Positions 1,990-10,201 of a DNA stretch of 10,379 nt are shown in pieces. The stretch comes from Competibacteraceae bacterium UBA2792. Its GTDB lineage: Bacteria > Pseudomonadota > Gammaproteobacteria > Competibacterales > Competibacteraceae. The first letter of the stretch is position 1. Every line of letters starts with the position of its first letter. The position numbers were made by a program, and so were the translations under genes. The DNA lies in assembly GCA_002352125.1 (NCBI GenBank), contig DEHU01000126.1, positions 1 to 10,379 on the forward strand, written 5' to 3'. The notes under the pieces are model-generated. The model was not told the DNA's origin, did no database searches, and was given only the letters and a program-made list of their open reading frames with translations.

Positions 1990-2772
1990 TCACCACCTGA
2001 ATCTTCTTTTCATAATCGGCACGAGCCGTTGTTTGAAGCAACCACCCAACCGTTCAAAGCCGATTCTGGTCGGGTGCAGCTCGTTTGCCCACTCGCTTTC
2101 GGTCGCCAGTGTCCCCGCTGTTTTCACAAACACGACATGATCGGGATCATCTTGCTCGATCCGAGCCAATCGAGCTCCCAAGCCATCGATTAACATTCGG
2201 ATAATTTCGACCCGATATTCTTTTGGAACTCCACAATCATCCATCGGCTTTTTCAACCAATTCCCAAAGCCGAACAGTTTTTTACCGCTTGGGAAAGCAT
2301 GATCGTAATTGTGAATCGCGATGATAGCGTTGTTGATCTTGCCGAGTACCGTCGCAATCAGATCGCGATAACGCACCCCAAAATCGTTCAGGATGTCATC
2401 CGGCTGGCCCGGAACAAAACAGGCGGCAGCCGATTGCTCGTTGGCACAATTTCCCTTGAGAAGCTGCTTGAAATCGTCACCCGCAATATCATTGCCTCCC
2501 CCACTTAACAGCACCAGTTTGATTTTTCTATCATAAGTTTGGAGACTGGCCAAAAAATTGTCGCGATACCGTTTCTTGGTCAGATAATCCCGTAGTTCGG
2601 CACCGTTGTCGCCGATGGCGTAAATGATGCGATTGCCGTTCCAAATATTAAAAATCGGGTTAAGCAGATTATTGAATGGATACCAGAACCAGGAATCGCC
2701 CAGCGCCAGTATATCCGGCGATTCGTTCCGATTCGTCATTTCATTTTCATCCCAATACGGGTGCGAAGCCAT
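1990..2772 (-). CDS. SGNH/GDSL-type hydrolase (esterase/lipase-like), cytosolic
   Basis: The 260-residue product carries the blocks of the SGNH hydrolase superfamily. Block I is LALGDSW with candidate nucleophile Ser27, a Gly in YAIGDNG (54-57) can serve as block II, block III is LSGGGNDI with Asn94, and block V is ELHP with His233. These enzymes hydrolyse ester bonds in lipids, sugars or peptidoglycan substituents, but the substrate cannot be read here. The usual Asp three residues before the catalytic His is Asn230 (sequence WANELHP), so the acid may be Glu231 or the enzyme may work as a Ser-His dyad. No signal peptide is visible. I chose ATG 2772 because GGGGA lies 7 bases upstream; an in-frame ATG at 2823 would add 17 residues. 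The gene stands alone. The C-terminal tail KQRLVPIMKRRFRW is very basic, and the same DNA read in another frame continues open for about 60 codons, so the end may have been altered by a frameshift. Confidence 0.83.
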   Translation of the reverse strand: MASHPYWDENEMTNRNESPDILALGDSWFWYPFNNLLNPIFNIWNGNRIIYAIGDNGAELRDYLTKKRYRDNFLASLQTYDRKIKLVLLSGGGNDIAGDDFKQLLKGNCANEQSAAACFVPGQPDDILNDFGVRYRDLIATVLGKINNAIIAIHNYDHAFPSGKKLFGFGNWLKKPMDDCGVPKEYRVEIIRMLIDGLGARLARIEQDDPDHVVFVKTAGTLATESEWANELHPTRIGFERLGGCFKQRLVPIMKRRFRW

Positions 2773-2808
2773 CTTTCTTTCCCCAAAATGTTTGGTTGAG
2801 AATGCATT

Positions 2809-2825
2809 CAGTGTAGAACACACTG
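2809..2825. promoter_or_regulatory. Inverted repeat CAGTGT-N5-ACACTG upstream of the hydrolase
   Basis: CAGTGT (2809-2814) and ACACTG (2820-2825) form a 6-bp dyad with a five-base spacer, 37 bases before the hydrolase ATG. The position and symmetry fit an operator for a dimeric regulator of that gene. No specific regulator can be named. Confidence 0.35.
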
Positions 2826-3074: not shown

Positions 3075-3554
3075 ATGTTGCCGAAACGTCGTATTGCCAC
3101 CATCCTCTTATCTTTGGGCTTCTCCGCAAGCCTGGCTGGCTGGTCGGGCGCCCAAGCAGCAGAATCTCCACAATCGACTCAGCCTACCGAATCTCAATCG
3201 GCCATAACCACCGCGCCAGCCAAGAAGGAACTACCTTTCCCCGATGGCGAAAAATGGTCCACCGCCACGGAGCGGGAAAAACTGGCCTACCTGCTCGGTA
3301 TCATGAACATGGCAATGGTGGAATATCAGTTGACCGGCCCCACTCCAAAACACCGCACCACCGTTCCTAAGTTGGTGAAATCTCTGGATGGCATGACCTT
3401 GCAGCAAATGATGGGAACCGTAGACACTTATTACAAAGCGAACCCCGACCAACAGAAAAGGCCGATTTTCGAGGTCATCTGGTTCGAGATCGTGGCACCA
3501 AAGGCCAGCGCCAAATCCCAAGAACCCGGCACGCCCGCCGCGAAGAAGGGGTGA
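3075..3554 (+). CDS. Exported periplasmic protein of unknown function
   Basis: The 159-residue product begins with a clear Sec signal peptide: MLPKRR, a hydrophobic core (IATILLSLGFSASLAGW) and a likely cut after AQA or AQAA near residue 29. A Ser/Thr/Gln/Pro-rich linker follows (about 30-53). A compact domain (about 54-147) contains EKLAYLLGIMNMAMVEY, a helix starting VPKLVKSLDGMTLQQMM, and DTYYKANPDQQKRPIFEVIW. A Lys/Ala/Pro-rich tail ends the protein. I do not recognise the domain. The Tyr-Lys-Ala-Asn-Pro segment leading into an FEVIW strand looks like a conserved core. AGGA lies 7 bases before the chosen ATG; an overlapping ATG at 3068 is in another frame. Only three bases separate its stop from the next gene, so the two are very likely co-transcribed and act together in the envelope. 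Confidence 0.8.
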   Translation: MLPKRRIATILLSLGFSASLAGWSGAQAAESPQSTQPTESQSAITTAPAKKELPFPDGEKWSTATEREKLAYLLGIMNMAMVEYQLTGPTPKHRTTVPKLVKSLDGMTLQQMMGTVDTYYKANPDQQKRPIFEVIWFEIVAPKASAKSQEPGTPAAKKG

Positions 3555-3872: not shown

Positions 3873-4682
3873 CTAGGCCGGAGCTGCGTCGAGATCGCGG
3901 CGCAGTTCCATTGCCGCGGCGTGCAACCGCCCAAACAGCCGCTTCACTCCACTGCAATCGTAATCCCGGCGCGGCCATTTGAAATAGCCGCCGCAACTCC
4001 GCAAAAACTCGCAGCTCCGGCAATCTTCGGCAGCAGCCAACCCCCTCTCGATCCAGCCCTCTAGCTCCGTATCGGGCTCGACCGCCGCATCGCCGCCGGT
4101 CGCTAACCGGCCATACAGCGACTCTGCGCCATCGTCGGCGACATAGCGCAAATATCGAGGATCCTCGTCCAGCACCGACCACAGCGGCAACGGGTCGTCG
4201 TGATAAAACCCGAGCAGCATGCTATGAAAAAACTCGACAGGTTGAGCGACCGTCGGCTGGTGCAGATAAAATTCCAGCGCCGCTATCAATTCTTCGATCA
4301 AAGGCGGTTCGGGCTGTCCCAGCTCCAGCCGCACGGCGAAATCCAGCGACACCGCTACTTTGATCGCCTTGAGGAAGCCGGATCGCACCGGCACGACCGC
4401 TCGCACCGGATGTTTGTCGAGCAGGTTAGTATGGCGATACAGCAGCGGATACTCGCTGGCAGGATCGGCCATGACCAATTCGATCGGCAATCCCGGCGCC
4501 CAAGCGTTCAACGCCTCGGAATCGGCTGCCAGCGCCAAAAGCTGCACTGCGACGACCCGCTCGGGATCTTCGGCCGCTAGCGTAGCCGGCAGCGAAGCTG
4601 GTTCGTCAGTCCGGACCACCCAGTCCCCGTGCCGATAGGCCGATAACAGGTGCGGCGGAATGCTATAAATCGATTCGTTCAT
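3873..4682 (-). CDS. SPASM-like Fe-S protein lacking the radical-SAM CxxxCxxC motif
   Basis: The 269-residue protein has only four cysteines, all near the C-terminus: C221, C224, C230 and C243, in the pattern C-x2-C-x5-C-x12-C. The context DCRSCEFLRSCGGYFKWP resembles the auxiliary Fe-S cluster region of SPASM proteins, the C-terminal extension of radical-SAM peptide maturases. The middle (about 90-160: HPVRAVVPV, SGFLKAIKVAVSLDF, ELGQPEPPLIEELIAAL, then QPVEFFHS) reads like the second half of a radical-SAM barrel. The N-terminal CxxxCxxC that binds the catalytic cluster and S-adenosylmethionine is absent. It is probably an auxiliary or degenerate relative that binds one cluster and perhaps the peptide. 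The gene begins 25 bases after the stop of the W-x-N repeat gene with no good ribosome binding site, suggesting coupled translation. The frame is intact and of good coding quality, so decay is unlikely. Its exact family is not known to me. Confidence 0.72.
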   Translation of the reverse strand: MNESIYSIPPHLLSAYRHGDWVVRTDEPASLPATLAAEDPERVVAVQLLALAADSEALNAWAPGLPIELVMADPASEYPLLYRHTNLLDKHPVRAVVPVRSGFLKAIKVAVSLDFAVRLELGQPEPPLIEELIAALEFYLHQPTVAQPVEFFHSMLLGFYHDDPLPLWSVLDEDPRYLRYVADDGAESLYGRLATGGDAAVEPDTELEGWIERGLAAAEDCRSCEFLRSCGGYFKWPRRDYDCSGVKRLFGRLHAAAMELRRDLDAAPA

Positions 4683-4707
4683 CGGGGTCGTCGCCGATCG
4701 CGCGCGG

Positions 4708-5091
4708 TCAGCGATTGTGCCAACCGCCGTTTACCCATTTTGGCCGGTTGTACCAGCCCCGCCGGTTGTACCAGCCTGGCCGGTTGTGCCAGTGACGCCG
4801 GCGATTGTGCCAACCCGGTCCGTTATACCAGCCCCGCCCATTATACCAGCCCGGACCATAACCCCAGCCCCAGCCAGGTCCACCACCACCGAGATTGACC
4901 CAGTTACCATGATTGCTCCAGCCCACGGCTTCGGCTTCTTTACCGGGGAGTAGGGCTCCGCCCAAGACGACGCCGCCAATGACGGCTTTCGACCATTTTC
5001 CCAAGCCGATCAGAAAATCCCGCCGATCGCGCAAATCCGGCTCCACGGCTTCGGGTTCTGTTTGCAAAACTTCTCGTTCTTTATCAGCCAT
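4708..5091 (-). CDS. Tat-exported W-x-N repeat protein, candidate modified-peptide precursor
   Basis: The 127-residue protein begins with an acidic 20-residue leader (MADKEREVLQTEPEAVEPDL). A twin-arginine signal follows: RDRRDFLIG (R23, R24, F26, L27), a hydrophobic stretch (about 36-49) and a likely cut after AEA at residue 55. The mature 72 residues are almost all Gly, Trp, Asn, Arg, Tyr, His and Pro, with ten W-x-N motifs at 58, 64, 82, 88, 94, 101, 107, 113, 119 and 124 (W-S-N, W-V-N, W-Y-N, W-H-N). In most of the second half the period is six residues (PGWYNR-type). There is no cysteine. W-x-N is a site type that radical-SAM/SPASM enzymes cross-link into three-residue cyclophanes in the Xye and GRR families. 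Maturation by such an enzyme followed by folded export through Tat is my inference. ATG 5091 is the start because GGAGG lies exactly 5 bases upstream; a GTG just before it is too close. An unmodified Trp/Asn-rich envelope or metal-binding protein is the alternative. Confidence 0.75.
   Translation of the reverse strand: MADKEREVLQTEPEAVEPDLRDRRDFLIGLGKWSKAVIGGVVLGGALLPGKEAEAVGWSNHGNWVNLGGGGPGWGWGYGPGWYNGRGWYNGPGWHNRRRHWHNRPGWYNRRGWYNRPKWVNGGWHNR
4744..4854 (-). repeat. Six imperfect 18-bp tandem repeats encoding the PGWYNR-type units
   Basis: Units begin at 4744, 4762, 4780, 4801, 4819 and 4837 on the plus strand, each close to CCGGTTGTACCAGCCCCG. The only phase change is a 3-base insertion at 4798-4800, which adds one Arg (RRRHWHN). 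Some unit changes hit codon third positions, while the Trp and Asn codons are kept. The array lies inside the Tat-signal gene and shows that its core grew by in-frame duplication. Confidence 0.8.
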
Positions 5092-5187: not shown

Positions 5188-5691
5188 TCAGCTTTCCTCG
5201 CCCGAATCAATTTCGCTCGTACTATTATCGGAAAAATGCACGATGCGAAAATACCACTTGCCATCTAATTGTTCCAAAATGACGGTCAAGTTGGTTCCAT
5301 ATTCCCGTTTCTCGTTCTTCAAGAAATCCGAGATCCAACACATGCTCGCCATCCAGGCCAGATTGCCCTTGATTTCGGATCGCGTCCAGGTACAGCGCAT
5401 CTCCCGCGTCCCCGGATCGAAGGATTCGGAAAGCGCCGTGTAAGCCGCCCGAATCTCTTCCTTGCCGGGCCAGCGTTCGCCCACGCCGGTTCCGGGCAGG
5501 ATGGTGTCGTTGCCGGGCGCATACGCTACCATCACGCCAGCCAGATCGTGCTCGTTGATCGATCGATCGTATCGGGCGAACACTGCTTTCACCCCGTCAG
5601 GTGCTTTTGCAGAACCTTCCGGCAGACTCCAGCCTGCAACGGCCCAAGCTCCCAACACCAGCGGCAATGCCAACAACAAACGGCGTTCCAC
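5188..5691 (-). CDS. Exported SnoaL/DUF4440-type (NTF2-fold) protein
   Basis: From GTG 5691 the product is 167 residues with a signal peptide (MERR, LLLALPLVLGAWAVAGW, cut near AKA at 28-30). It then has a SnoaL-like NTF2-fold domain: the helix VKAVFARYDRSINEHDLAGVM, the loop YAPGNDTILPGTG, WPGKEEIRAAYTALSESF, and paired strands ending in LTVILEQLDGKWYFRIVHF. Members of this fold are small cone-shaped enzymes or ligand binders; no catalytic function can be assigned. AGGAG lies 7 bases before the GTG. An in-frame ATG at 5736, with GAGAG 4 bases upstream, would add 15 residues including GRRNFVE. That resembles a Tat motif (RRxF) and would make this a second Tat substrate, but two further Arg precede the hydrophobic core. 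It is the first gene of the minus-strand cluster and ends 96 bases before the W-x-N gene, so shared transcription is likely but not certain. Confidence 0.75.
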   Translation of the reverse strand: MERRLLLALPLVLGAWAVAGWSLPEGSAKAPDGVKAVFARYDRSINEHDLAGVMVAYAPGNDTILPGTGVGERWPGKEEIRAAYTALSESFDPGTREMRCTWTRSEIKGNLAWMASMCWISDFLKNEKREYGTNLTVILEQLDGKWYFRIVHFSDNSTSEIDSGEES

Positions 5692-5807: not shown

Positions 5808-8048
5808 ATGCGTATCCATCGGTCGTTCCGATCTCTGGCTCTGTTCGCGCTCGTTCCGCTGATGGCGTTGGCGGTCTTTCCAAACCCAACTTCCACCGTC
5901 GTCGCGGCAGTCGCCCGGAACCGTCCCCACATCGGTTTGGTGCTGGGTGGCGGTGGCGCTCGCGGCATCGCCCACATCGGCGTGCTCAAGACTTTGGAAG
6001 CGATGCGCGTTCCGGTCGACTGCATCGCCGGTACCAGCATGGGTTCGATCATCGGCGGGCTGTACGCATCCGGCATGTCGCCCGAGCAAATGAGCGAAGC
6101 CGTGCAGCGCATCGATTGGCCGGCAGCGTTCACCGACGGACCGCCGCGCACCGATCTACCGTTTCGAATCAAGGAAGATCAACGGGTTTTGCTGGATGCC
6201 GAAATCGGCCTCAAACAAGGCAAGGCGCAATTGCCCAAGGGTTTGCTCGAAGGCCAAAATCTGTTGCTGCTGCTGGAACAACTGTCGCTGCCAGCCGCCA
6301 GCGTCCACGATTTCGATAAGCTCCGGATTCCCTATCGGGCAGTCGCGACCGATCTGGCCACCGGCGAACCGGTGGTGCTGGGCTCCGGCGAACTGGCCAA
6401 GGCGATGCGAGCCAGCATGTCGATTCCCAGCGCCCTCGTGCCGGTAGAGCTGAACGGCAAGATACTGGTGGACGGTGGGGTCGCAGACAATGTACCCGTG
6501 GACGTAGTACGGGAACTCTGCCACCCGGACGTCATCATCGCCGTGAACGTGGGTGCACCGTTAGCGCCGGCCGATCAACTCACTTCGGTACTGTCGGTGA
6601 CCGAACAGCTCACCAACTTCCTGACCGTGGGCAACACCAACCGACAACTGCGTACCCTGGGGCGCAAAGATGTACTGATCGTGCCGGACCTGAAGGACTT
6701 AGGCAGCATCGACTTCAATCGCGCGGCGGAAGCCATCGCTATCGGCTATGCCGCCGCTCAAGCGAAGCGCGACGAACTGGCTCGATTGACGATCTCGCCA
6801 GACGTTTACGAAGAGTACCTGGCTTCGTTGCCGCAGATACCTCAAACCGAGCGGCCGGTTATCGACTTTATCCGCATCAAGAACGACACGCGATTGTCGG
6901 ATCAGGTCATCGAAGGGCAACTGCACGTCAAGCCGGGCGAGCGGCTCGATTCCGAAAAACTCAATCGCAGCCTCAACGCGATCTACGGTATGGGCGAGTT
7001 TCAGCGGGTCAACTACACCTTGGTCCGCGACCACGGTAAAACCGGGCTAGTCGTCGAAGCGCATCAAAAAGATATCGGTGCCGATACCCTAAAATTCGGT
7101 TTGTTCCTCGGCGCCAACCTCAAAGGCGACTCGGAGTTCGACATCAGCGCCGCTTATACCCTGTCGCAACTCAACTCCTTGGGCGGACAATGGCGCAATT
7201 TCGTCCAACTGGGCGGCAACATCGTTTTGGCGAGCGATTTCTATCAGCCGCTCGACGCCGATCAGCGCTACTACATCGATCCCTACCTGCAGTACGAGCA
7301 ATATAATTTAGAGTTGGTCAACGCTGCCTACGCGGACAGTACCAGCTTTCGAGTTTATCGCTCCGAGATCGGCTTGGAAGTGGGCAGAAATCTGGAAAAC
7401 TGGGGACGATTGTCGCTCGGTTTGCACTATGGTACGGGCCGCAACGATCTTCGTCTCGGGCAACCTTCTCTTTACGAAGGCAATTTTACCGAGAGCGGAT
7501 ATTCGATCCGCTGGCAGACCGACACGCTGGATAATCTCAATTTTCCCACTTCTGGCAATCGCACCAATCTCGTCTTCCGCGACTTCCTGACCGAGCTGGG
7601 ATCGGATCAAGACTTCCAGACTCTCGATTTGAACTTGGCCCATGCTTATACGTGGGGTAAATACTCGATCATTCCGCGCGTTCGGCTGGCCGGCAAGCTC
7701 TCCGGCGAACTGGGCATCCAGGATTTATTCATGCAAGGGGGATTCCTGAATCTGTCGGGCTATCAACCCGGCCAGCTTTCGGGTCAGTACATCGCTCTGG
7801 GCGAAATCATCTATATGTACCGGCTAACCGACGCTTCGGCGGCGTTCACCATTCCCATTTTCGCGGGCGGTTCGCTGGAGATAGGCGGCGCCTGGAATGA
7901 ATACAGCGATATCACCGTCGATTCGCTGATTCCGGCGGGGAGCTTGTTTCTGGGAGTCGATACGCCGCTGGGGCCGTTTTACGCGGCTGGCGGCTACGCC
8001 GAGGGCGGTAATGCTTCGCTCTATCTGCTGCTGGGCAAACTGTTCTGA
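5808..8048 (+). CDS. PlpD-like patatin phospholipase with POTRA and outer-membrane beta-barrel (type Vd)
   Basis: The 746-residue protein has a signal peptide (about 1-33). A patatin lipase domain (about 40-240) follows, with oxyanion loop GGGGARG (47-53), nucleophile elbow GTSMG (Ser77) and the catalytic-dyad Asp in DGG (Asp222). A POTRA-like segment covers about 343-420 (from [20 protein letters not shown]). A beta-barrel of the bacterial surface antigen (Omp85) type fills about 425-746, ending in LYLLLGKLF with the terminal Phe typical of BAM substrates. Length and order match PlpD of Pseudomonas, the type Vd autotransporter family, in which the barrel moves the lipase to the surface. Family members cleave phospholipids (A1/A2 activity). 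The start is supported by the signal peptide, although no strong ribosome binding site precedes it. Its stop overlaps the rluE start by one base. Confidence 0.93.
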
Positions 8049-8704: not shown

Positions 8705-9472
8705 CTATCGTTGGCCAGCCGACCCGGCCGGCCCGGGGACTTGCGCTTCTTGGCGTCTCCGCCGCAGCAGGCGTGAAATGAATATGCCGACCTCGAACAA
8801 AAACCACATCGGCAATGCCAGCAGGGTTTGCGAAATTACGTCTGGCATCAAAAACATGCCGATGACAAACGCGCCGACGATAACGTAGGACCGCTTCGAC
8901 GCCATCGCCTCAGGCGTGAGGATACCGGCCAAGACCAAAATCACCGTGGCAACCGGCACTTCGAACGCCACCCCGAACGCGAAAAACATCATCATCACGA
9001 AATCGAGATAGCGGTTGATATCGGTCATCACCGCCACGCCCTCGGGAGCGGTGCTGGTGATGAAGGCGAAAAAGATGGGCATGATCACAAAGTACGCGAA
9101 GATCATGCCGCAATAAAACAGCGTCGTGCTGGAAAAGATAATCGGCAGCACCATTCGCTTCTCGCGCTGGTACAACCCTGGCGCGACGAAGGCCCAGACT
9201 TGATAAAGCGTCCAGGGCACGGTAACGAACAGCGCCAGCACCAGCGTGAATTTGAGGGGAGTCAGAAACGGCGACAGCACGTCGATAGCGATCATGCTGC
9301 TCTGGGCTGGCATGTGCCGGGTCAAGGGGCCAGCCAGCGCCGTATAGATCGGATTGGAAAATGGCGACAGGCCCACGAACACCACCAAGATGCCGATCAC
9401 GATACGCAACAAACGGCTGCGCAATTCGATCAGATGGCTGACGAGCGGCTGCTCGTGGTCGGCGTCGGTCAC
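8705..9472 (-). CDS. tatC: Sec-independent protein translocase subunit TatC
   Basis: The 255-residue protein with six membrane helices is the receptor of the twin-arginine translocase in the inner membrane. Signature segments are present: SHLIELRSRLLR in the N-terminal cytoplasmic region (Glu16, Arg18), VPWTLYQVWAFVAPGLYQRE in the first periplasmic/cytoplasmic loop area (Glu104), FAFGVAFEVPV (Glu171), and MPDVISQTLLALP (Asp211). These match the conserved residues of E. coli TatC. The tail is basic, then Gln/Pro/Gly-rich. The ATG overlaps the tatB stop by four bases (ATGA), showing coupled translation. It recognises RR-containing signals such as the one on the W-x-N protein in this window. Confidence 0.97.
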   Translation of the reverse strand: MTDADHEQPLVSHLIELRSRLLRIVIGILVVFVGLSPFSNPIYTALAGPLTRHMPAQSSMIAIDVLSPFLTPLKFTLVLALFVTVPWTLYQVWAFVAPGLYQREKRMVLPIIFSSTTLFYCGMIFAYFVIMPIFFAFITSTAPEGVAVMTDINRYLDFVMMMFFAFGVAFEVPVATVILVLAGILTPEAMASKRSYVIVGAFVIGMFLMPDVISQTLLALPMWFLFEVGIFISRLLRRRRQEAQVPGPAGSAGQR

Positions 9473-9921
9473 GGGGTTTGATCGGGCGGTGGAGGCGGCG
9501 GAGAAGGCGACGGCGCGGCGGATGGAGCGGCTGGCCGCGGTTCGGTCTTAGTCAACCGAACCGGCGCGGTTGGCGAGTTTGGATCGGAGTAGGGTGGCGG
9601 CGCACCGGTCGGCATTCCCGGTTGCCAGCCGGGCGGTGGTCCGGGGTCGTCGAACTCCGCGTGGATATCTTCGCGCAGCGACTTCATTCGCTCCGAGACA
9701 TCCTTCAAATCGTCGAGGCCGGCTTGCTGGCGAAACGACCGTTTGAGCTCCTCCAGTTGAAGTTCCCGATCCACTTCGGCCTTAACATCCGCAATCATCC
9801 GTCGGGCTTTGCCCACCCACAAACCGGCGGTACGCGCCAAGCCGGGCAATTTATCGGGGCCGACGACAAGCAGCGCGACCACGCCGACCACGATCAATTC
9901 CCAGAAACCGATTTCGAACAT
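9469..9921 (-). CDS. tatB: Sec-independent protein translocase subunit TatB
   Basis: The 150-residue protein starts MFEIGFWELIVVGVVALLVV, with the conserved Glu8 in the N-terminal membrane helix and GPDKLP at the hinge. An amphipathic helix (ARTAGLWVGKARRMIADVKA) follows, then a charged helical region to about residue 91. The C-terminal 59 residues are Pro/Ala/Ser-rich, ending in six consecutive prolines and DQTP, a tail of low complexity. TatB pairs with TatC to bind Tat signals. I chose ATG 9921 because it begins exactly at the family N-terminus; an upstream in-frame start would add 18 residues with no match. The ribosome site is weak. It sits 19 bases after tatA and overlaps tatC. Confidence 0.95.
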   Translation of the reverse strand: MFEIGFWELIVVGVVALLVVGPDKLPGLARTAGLWVGKARRMIADVKAEVDRELQLEELKRSFRQQAGLDDLKDVSERMKSLREDIHAEFDDPGPPPGWQPGMPTGAPPPYSDPNSPTAPVRLTKTEPRPAAPSAAPSPSPPPPPPDQTP

Positions 9922-9940
9922 GTTGGCGCGATTCCGGAAC

Positions 9941-10201
9941 TTAGATTTTTTCCCGATCCTTGGCCAATGGATCATTCACTCCCGCTGCGGTCTGTTCCCG
10001 GGCGGCGGGTTGTTCGAGTTTTTTGGGGTCTTCCTCGAACGCTGCATCCGGTGCAGCCGGCTTGGCGCCTTCCTTCATGGCATCGCGGAAACCGCGAATC
10101 GCCGAGCCCAGATCGGACCCTAGATTGCGCAGCCGGCTGCCGCCGAACAACACCAGCACGATGACCAGGATAAGCAGTAATTCCCAGATATTGAAATGCA
10201 T
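9941..10201 (-). CDS. tatA: Sec-independent protein translocase subunit TatA
   Basis: The 86-residue pore-forming subunit of the Tat translocase starts MHFNIWELLLILVIVLVLFG, a single short membrane helix. The conserved Phe-Gly hinge (F19, G20) leads into the amphipathic helix GSDLGSAIRGFRDAMKEG. The rest is a charged, flexible tail rich in Ala, Pro, Glu and Lys. GAGG lies 9 bases before the ATG. The gene follows hisE by 40 bases on the same strand. Confidence 0.96.
   Translation of the reverse strand: MHFNIWELLLILVIVLVLFGGSRLRNLGSDLGSAIRGFRDAMKEGAKPAAPDAAFEEDPKKLEQPAAREQTAAGVNDPLAKDREKI

Follow-up and report, generated by a model that had tools for sequence, protein, structure and literature searches.

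The 10,379-nucleotide stretch analysed here (the window; contig DEHU01000126.1 of Competibacteraceae bacterium UBA2792) encodes on its reverse strand a precursor protein with a twin-arginine translocation (Tat) type leader and a W-x-N repeat core, and a partner that resembles a radical S-adenosylmethionine (SAM)/SPASM protein without the SAM-cluster motif. Together with a radical-SAM/SPASM enzyme encoded outside the window, they probably constitute a system similar to those of ribosomally synthesized and post-translationally modified peptides (RiPPs), in which the enzyme and the pseudoenzyme staple Trp-Asn repeats and the product is exported through Tat. That the precursor, partner and enzyme genes belong to one system is almost certain. 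The initial annotation, made from the window sequence, had proposed a Tat-exported cyclophane peptide with a SPASM-like partner and no radical-SAM core. The kind of system it described stands; the lack of a radical-SAM core does not.

The precursor gene (4708..5091, reverse strand; ATG at 5091) was read as an open reading frame (ORF) and encodes 127 residues: a leader (residues 1-55) and a mature repeat core (residues 56-127; 4711..4926, reverse strand). The twin arginines R23-R24 of the leader (RRDFL...GKWSKAVIGG; 5020..5025, reverse strand), conserved across precursor frames, are followed by Asp, Phe and Leu, then by a hydrophobic stretch and an A-E-A sequence. The 72-residue core contains ten W-x-N motifs. 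In 100,000 shuffles of this core, the mean number of motifs was 1.8 and the maximum was seven; ten were reached in none. The features first noted (ten motifs in 72 mature residues, a Tat leader, a 25-base gap and a C-x2-C-x5-C-x12-C partner) were all confirmed. Across 28 precursors (14 chosen and 14 from loci; that of genome G011 is in both, leaving 27 distinct), 223 of 258 core Trp residues are in W-x-N and eight more in W-x-D. The residue x varies, being mostly V, Y, I, A or G, and the following residue is mostly Arg or Gly. This pattern has the appearance of a repeat-type cyclophane substrate, as initially suggested.

The leader is conserved beyond the twin arginines. Among 77 homologous precursor frames, selected in part by an [LI]-G-x-W-[ST] leader segment and often drawn from loci found with a profile containing RR, the RR pair is present in 77, Phe in 76, Leu in 77 and an A-x-A/S site in 72. 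Judged from sequence, these features are typical of Tat substrates, in agreement with the first assignment. L30, G31, W33 and S34 are invariant in the 14 chosen leaders. Metagenomic precursor homologues numbered 1,763 at E <= 0.001; of the best 120 of these, 115 match RR-x-x-L-x2-[LI]-[GA]-x-W and the other five keep W-S by eye, which means that the leader Trp is retained in all 120. Because these four residues are invariant and the Trp is kept, the conservation beyond RR-x-F-L suggests a second role of the leader, namely recognition by the enzyme.

The partner gene (3873..4682, reverse strand) is separated from the precursor gene by 25 bases and encodes 269 residues, which were assigned to a pseudo-radical-SAM/SPASM protein from the cysteine pattern, profile alignment and predicted fold. 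Its cysteines are arranged as C221-x2-C224-x5-C230-x12-C243. The site C-x2-C-x5-CGGYFKWP-x5-C (3954..4022, reverse strand) corresponds, on sequence conservation, to the four auxiliary cluster II (Aux II) cysteines of the SPASM domain, and is the most conserved region of the partner, with an almost invariant C-GGYFKWP-C. The cysteine spacing is present in all of 137 partner sequences (120 listed of the 191 found, the window partner included, and 17 from loci, some incomplete), and the CX3CX2C radical-SAM motif is found in none of them. Since the RR pair occurs in 77 of 77 frames and the cysteine spacing in 137 of 137 partners, these features of the two proteins are beyond chance. Of the seven-cysteine SPASM motif CX9-15GX4C-CX2CX5CX3C-C, only CX2CX5C and the last Cys remain, which are the Aux II ligands; the Aux I cysteines are missing together with CX3CX2C.

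The best curated match of the window partner was the SPASM model TIGR04085 at 13.5 bits (cut-off 27), followed by a weaker match to HxsC; no Pfam match was found at E <= 1. When PDB sequences were searched with the partner family, all matches were at chance level (best E 0.21). The predicted structure shows the barrel and SPASM fold of radical-SAM/SPASM proteins, and a first model (pLDDT 77) matched ChlB in Foldseek at E 1e-4. The partner shares 12 to 14% identity with ChlB (PDB 9gm3, 9gmc) and anSMEcpe (4k36-4k39), and differs from them in having neither CX3CX2C nor the Aux I cysteines. The SPASM relatedness proposed at first is supported by profile alignment and by VIA-align structure comparison. 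The partner is, as modelled, a pseudoenzyme of the radical-SAM/SPASM fold in which the Aux II cluster site survives, whereas the SAM cluster and Aux I have disappeared. As this site with GGYFKWP is its most conserved part, a predicted Fe-S cluster is suggested rather than a mere leader clamp. It should be mentioned that no copy of the partner was matched in the plasmid collection searched.

None of the ten window ORFs scanned matched the Radical_SAM model. In the following, G000 denotes the window genome, G0xx the compared genomes and Lxxx fetched loci. Six genomes were scanned for Pfam Radical_SAM, and the 38 match-bearing stretches of G024 and G000 were read. A cysteine-pattern search of such stretches gave one protein in each of these two genomes with CX3CX2C and the CX2CX5CX3C SPASM signature. 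In the window genome, whose assembly comprises 3.59 Mb in 316 contigs and is 75% complete, this enzyme is encoded at C259:26615-27805 (reverse strand). Strong orthologues (E <= 1e-30) are present in 26 of 59 genomes, all Competibacteraceae; 36 genomes pass E <= 0.001, and ten weakly similar ones were dropped, including a 31-residue fragment that is the enzyme evidence in G006. In 12 of the 20 enzyme loci fetched, the enzyme gene is closely followed by a W-x-N precursor frame. The enzyme starts only 14 residues before CX3CX2C, which leaves no room for an N-terminal leader-binding domain; therefore, the partner seems to be the natural candidate for leader binding. Within the family, the recurrent neighbours listed for the 27 loci of the precursor-partner pair include no radical-SAM family, G011 excepted. 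In G011, which has the most divergent family partner (48% identity), the enzyme gene begins at the partner stop codon with an ATGA overlap. Homologues of the verrucomicrobial enzyme L277:6744-7982 are very common in metagenomes: of the candidates scored, 1,146 reached E <= 1e-60, and the named ones among 120 listed are radical SAM, SPASM-domain, hypothetical or uncharacterized proteins. A protein of about 590 residues is encoded upstream of the enzyme gene on the opposite strand in 17 of the 20 family enzyme loci (L156-L175), with a small lipoprotein-like frame between.

Matches to the partner of the window include proteins whose names point to Candidatus Competibacter, Contendobacter and Competibacteraceae. 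The partner was found in 27 of the 59 genomes searched: 27 of 37 Competibacteraceae and none of 22 others. A W-x-N frame is upstream of it in 24 of these 27, and two more (G004, G006) are cut by a contig end. Among the 37 family genomes, 26 have both partner and leader, one the partner only, two the leader only and eight neither (Fisher p 1e-5). For partner and enzyme, the corresponding numbers are 23, four, three and seven (Fisher p 0.003). Both p values are too good, because the 37 genomes are related by descent. The proposal that the precursor and partner genes belong together is thereby borne out by co-occurrence, the leader being found in 26 of the 27 partner-bearing family genomes. Partner, enzyme and leader are all missing from the genera g3, g4, g8 and g10; in the other nine genera partner and leader are present, accompanied in eight by a strong enzyme match. 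The leader profile matches 28 of the 59 genomes with up to five copies per genome. The copies occupy loci of three or more types, distinguished by their neighbour: the partner (A), the radical-SAM gene (B) or a SnoaL-like gene (C). When 369 genomes were drawn evenly from the class, leader and enzyme (E <= 1e-30) were each found in three, the same three family genomes; among 398 genomes of the phylum, the partner was found in one, the window's own. These draws scored few candidates per genome, and distant members may be missed. A further kind of precursor shares this leader, but its core contains Cys and Asp and no more than five or six W-x-N motifs (approximately L219:500-105 and L221:2709-2300, both reverse strand).

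A scan for the partner family in genomes of 84,980 species gave 46 loci; its prefilter used two peptide patterns, and partners lacking these cannot appear. Eighteen loci were examined: 16 outside the family, L260 (G035) and L272 (G011). The other 28 are labelled as, or by identity near, the family. The 16 belong to Pyrinomonadaceae and another acidobacterium (L261, L262, L265, L267), Chromatiaceae (L263, L264, L268-L270), Accumulibacter (L266), Verrucomicrobiota (L273, L275, L277), Armatimonadetes (L276) and Hydrogenedentes (L278, L279; two contigs of one genome), which, with the organisms as named in the records, we take to represent five phyla. Cultured carriers among them are Thiorhodococcus mannitoliphagus DSM 18266 and Lamprocystis purpurea DSM 4197 (loci L264 and L269). 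The radical-SAM protein sought in these conserved loci was found right after the partner in all 16, and in 17 of the 18 examined (L260 being the miss). A W-x-N precursor with an RR leader is upstream of the partner in 15 of the 18 and in 13 of the 16; in L276 an upstream precursor frame was looked for and not found, and the contigs of L278 and L279 start inside the partner. Outside the family, the partner and enzyme genes overlap or are directly adjacent; at the 14 loci where it was measured, the spacing ranges from -41 to +18 nt. Partner and enzyme distances over all 32 pairs are correlated with r 0.94, a value reached in none of 5,000 permutations. Because the loci outside the family show the order precursor, pseudoenzyme, enzyme, we infer that this order is ancestral and that most Competibacteraceae moved the enzyme elsewhere. 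Named homologues of the system parts in the listed matches are hypothetical, uncharacterized, SPASM-domain or plain radical-SAM proteins. The locus L260, titled Synechococcaceae cyanobacterium SM1_2_3, is of the Competibacteraceae type with the partner gene split over two frames, and its source is probably a mislabelled bin.

Several observations weigh against this interpretation. The profile match between partner and enzyme covers 48 columns at a probability of 44%. A second, better model of the partner gave no Foldseek match at E <= 0.001, and its best rows were transaldolase barrels (E 9e-3); for this reason the radical-SAM reading of the partner rests on VIA-align, profile alignment and the cysteines. 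No precursor adjoins the partner in G017 (one of the 27 partner genomes), and none was found adjoining the enzyme in G000. The partner occurs without a strong radical-SAM match in G001, G006, G016 and G027, and the enzyme without the partner in G028, G031 and G036. Within the family, partner and enzyme distances are weakly correlated (18 pairs, r 0.29, reached in 98 of 5,000 permutations). In addition, the enzyme is below every cut-off among 25 of the 47 families matched, the SPASM domain excepted, and DynA and anaerobic sulfatase maturase (anSME) score above GrrM. Assembly gaps may explain the partner-only and enzyme-only genomes. Such a gap is likely in G016, since a 4.3 kb contig of this genome opens with a precursor frame resembling that downstream of the enzyme in G034 of the same genus.

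The nearest known systems are the GRR/Osc triceptides (GrrA/OscA1, TIGR04260; GrrM/OscB, TIGR04261), which likewise have a Gly-rich repeat precursor, aromatic-x-Asn motifs and a SPASM radical-SAM enzyme. According to PMC11002830, OscB acts on such tripeptides by linking C7 of the Trp to the C-beta of the Asn or Asp. The core described here has this pattern of aromatic-x-Asn/Asp in a Gly-rich repeat at 231 of 258 Trp residues, with variable x, and the enzyme product would quite probably be Trp-Asn cyclophanes. Another modification of the repeats, such as oxidation, epimerization or a link over a different distance, is improbable in the light of this pattern and of a Thiorhodococcus precursor that resembles the GrrA/OscA1 model (22.9 bits, cut-off 31); it draws some support from the enzyme scores, the closest curated models being DynA (137.3 bits) and anSME (136.5 bits) against 94.2 bits for GrrM, whose cut-off is 310. 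The window precursor itself has no TIGR04260 match at E <= 1, the 22.9 bits being the best of four homologues. In its proposed mode of action the system resembles the GRR/Osc triceptides, although the curated models do not include it among them.

Other known systems are more distant. The AmcA/AmcB multiple-cyclophane RiPPs (NF041721, NF041718) are alike, by their model names, in a repeat-like precursor and a cyclophane-forming radical-SAM enzyme, but the scores were 13.7 of 40 bits for the precursor and 74.8 of 425 bits for the enzyme. DynA, DarW and DarE of dynobactin and darobactin, together with anSME, give the enzyme its highest scores among curated models (up to 137 bits, DarW also being near), but their cut-offs of 349 to 650 bits are not reached; these systems have a different type of precursor. 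The GeoRSP SPASM protein (TIGR04304) and the halophile pseudo-SAM/SPASM protein (TIGR04347) are, by model names, pseudo or SPASM-only proteins, and one of them belongs to a system with a radical-SAM enzyme (TIGR04303); the window partner matches neither at E <= 1. No curated family cut-off names the precursor, partner or enzyme. To our knowledge, a Tat leader, a pseudo-radical-SAM partner and a SnoaL-like gene are not part of GRR systems. These, with the Aux-II-only character of the pseudoenzyme and the scattering of precursors within the family, are apparently new parts, and the combination of Tat export, array-type cyclophane precursors and a pseudo-radical-SAM/SPASM partner was not found in the literature searched.

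In the proposed mechanism, the Tat leader would have a second function in being recognized by the enzymes. The C259 enzyme would act in the cytoplasm and bond each Trp to the Asn at position +2, so that as many as ten three-residue cyclophanes would form, at about -2 Da each. The partner would be a non-catalytic subunit acting with the enzyme, its most likely task being to present the leader or the substrate or to relay electrons; for a physical complex between the two, the chances seem to be even. The rigid Gly/Arg-rich product would leave by Tat, the leader being cleaved at A-x-A. This order, modification in the cytoplasm and then export in the folded state, is the one consistent with a radical enzyme residing in the cytoplasm and a precursor that carries a Tat leader. 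A bolder proposal is put forward only tentatively: a two-subunit maturase in at least five phyla, with the dead Aux-II-only paralogue as an obligate electron relay or substrate clamp, placing at least ten staples in whole exported proteins, which Tat would then carry out already rigid.

Proofreading chaperones are used to hold back Tat redox enzymes, and the partner might similarly be a Tat-leader chaperone that holds the precursor until it is modified, outside the catalytic complex. The conserved leader residues L30, G31, W33 and S34 and the persistence of the partner in G017, where no precursor is adjacent, accord with such a role. It is nevertheless unlikely, considering that conservation in the partner is highest at the putative Fe-S cluster site and that its gene overlaps or abuts that of the enzyme outside the family. 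That the repeats are unmodified, forming a structural Gly/Trp/Arg protein that is exported by Tat and encoded by genes that only happen to travel with an unrelated maturase, is very hard to reconcile with the gene order kept across five phyla and with the co-absence from four genera. If the stapling model is true, the role of the auxiliary SPASM cluster becomes directly testable, since nature has placed an Aux-II-only copy in a separate protein, and an exit route from the cell would be provided for folded, heavily cross-linked RiPPs. By the names in the records, carriers of the system are spread over five phyla, and homologues of its parts abound in metagenomes.

The window contains a fourth gene that the initial annotation did not mention, located immediately upstream of the precursor in the same orientation. 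It encodes a SnoaL-like (NTF2-fold) protein (5188..5691, reverse strand; start at GTG 5691 or ATG 5736), assigned by Pfam SnoaL_3, with a signal-peptide-like N terminus by eye. A same-strand SnoaL-like protein is upstream of the precursor in 11 of the 16 loci outside the family. Within the family, it is present in three of 27 A loci (the window, L035 and L054), three of 20 B loci and 13 of 20 other precursor loci; seven of the eight queries of this census were derived from loci that were then searched. SnoaL_3 was matched by seven of eight out-of-family proteins tested (the L266 frame failed) and by all four family proteins. This presumably exported SnoaL-like protein may take up, bind or process the product, a role that is a guess.

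Also in the window, a Tat gene set is located at 8705-10201 (reverse strand), with tatC and tatB assigned by curated models and tatA by eye, about 3.6 kb from the Tat-leader precursor. It was considered as a part of the system and rejected: tatC is near locus A in the window alone among 27 loci, and its position is thus treated as a coincidence. At 5808-8048 (forward strand), a Patatin domain is fused to POTRA and an Omp85 barrel, which is the layout of a type Vd autotransporter phospholipase. A GDSL-like lipase/acylhydrolase is encoded at 1990-2823 (reverse strand; Pfam match under the cut-off). Convergent with the partner gene, a small exported-looking protein with a sub-threshold Rap1a match is encoded at 3075-3554 (forward strand). 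A family like this protein is found in the same place and orientation in 21 of the 27 family loci, to which the search was confined.
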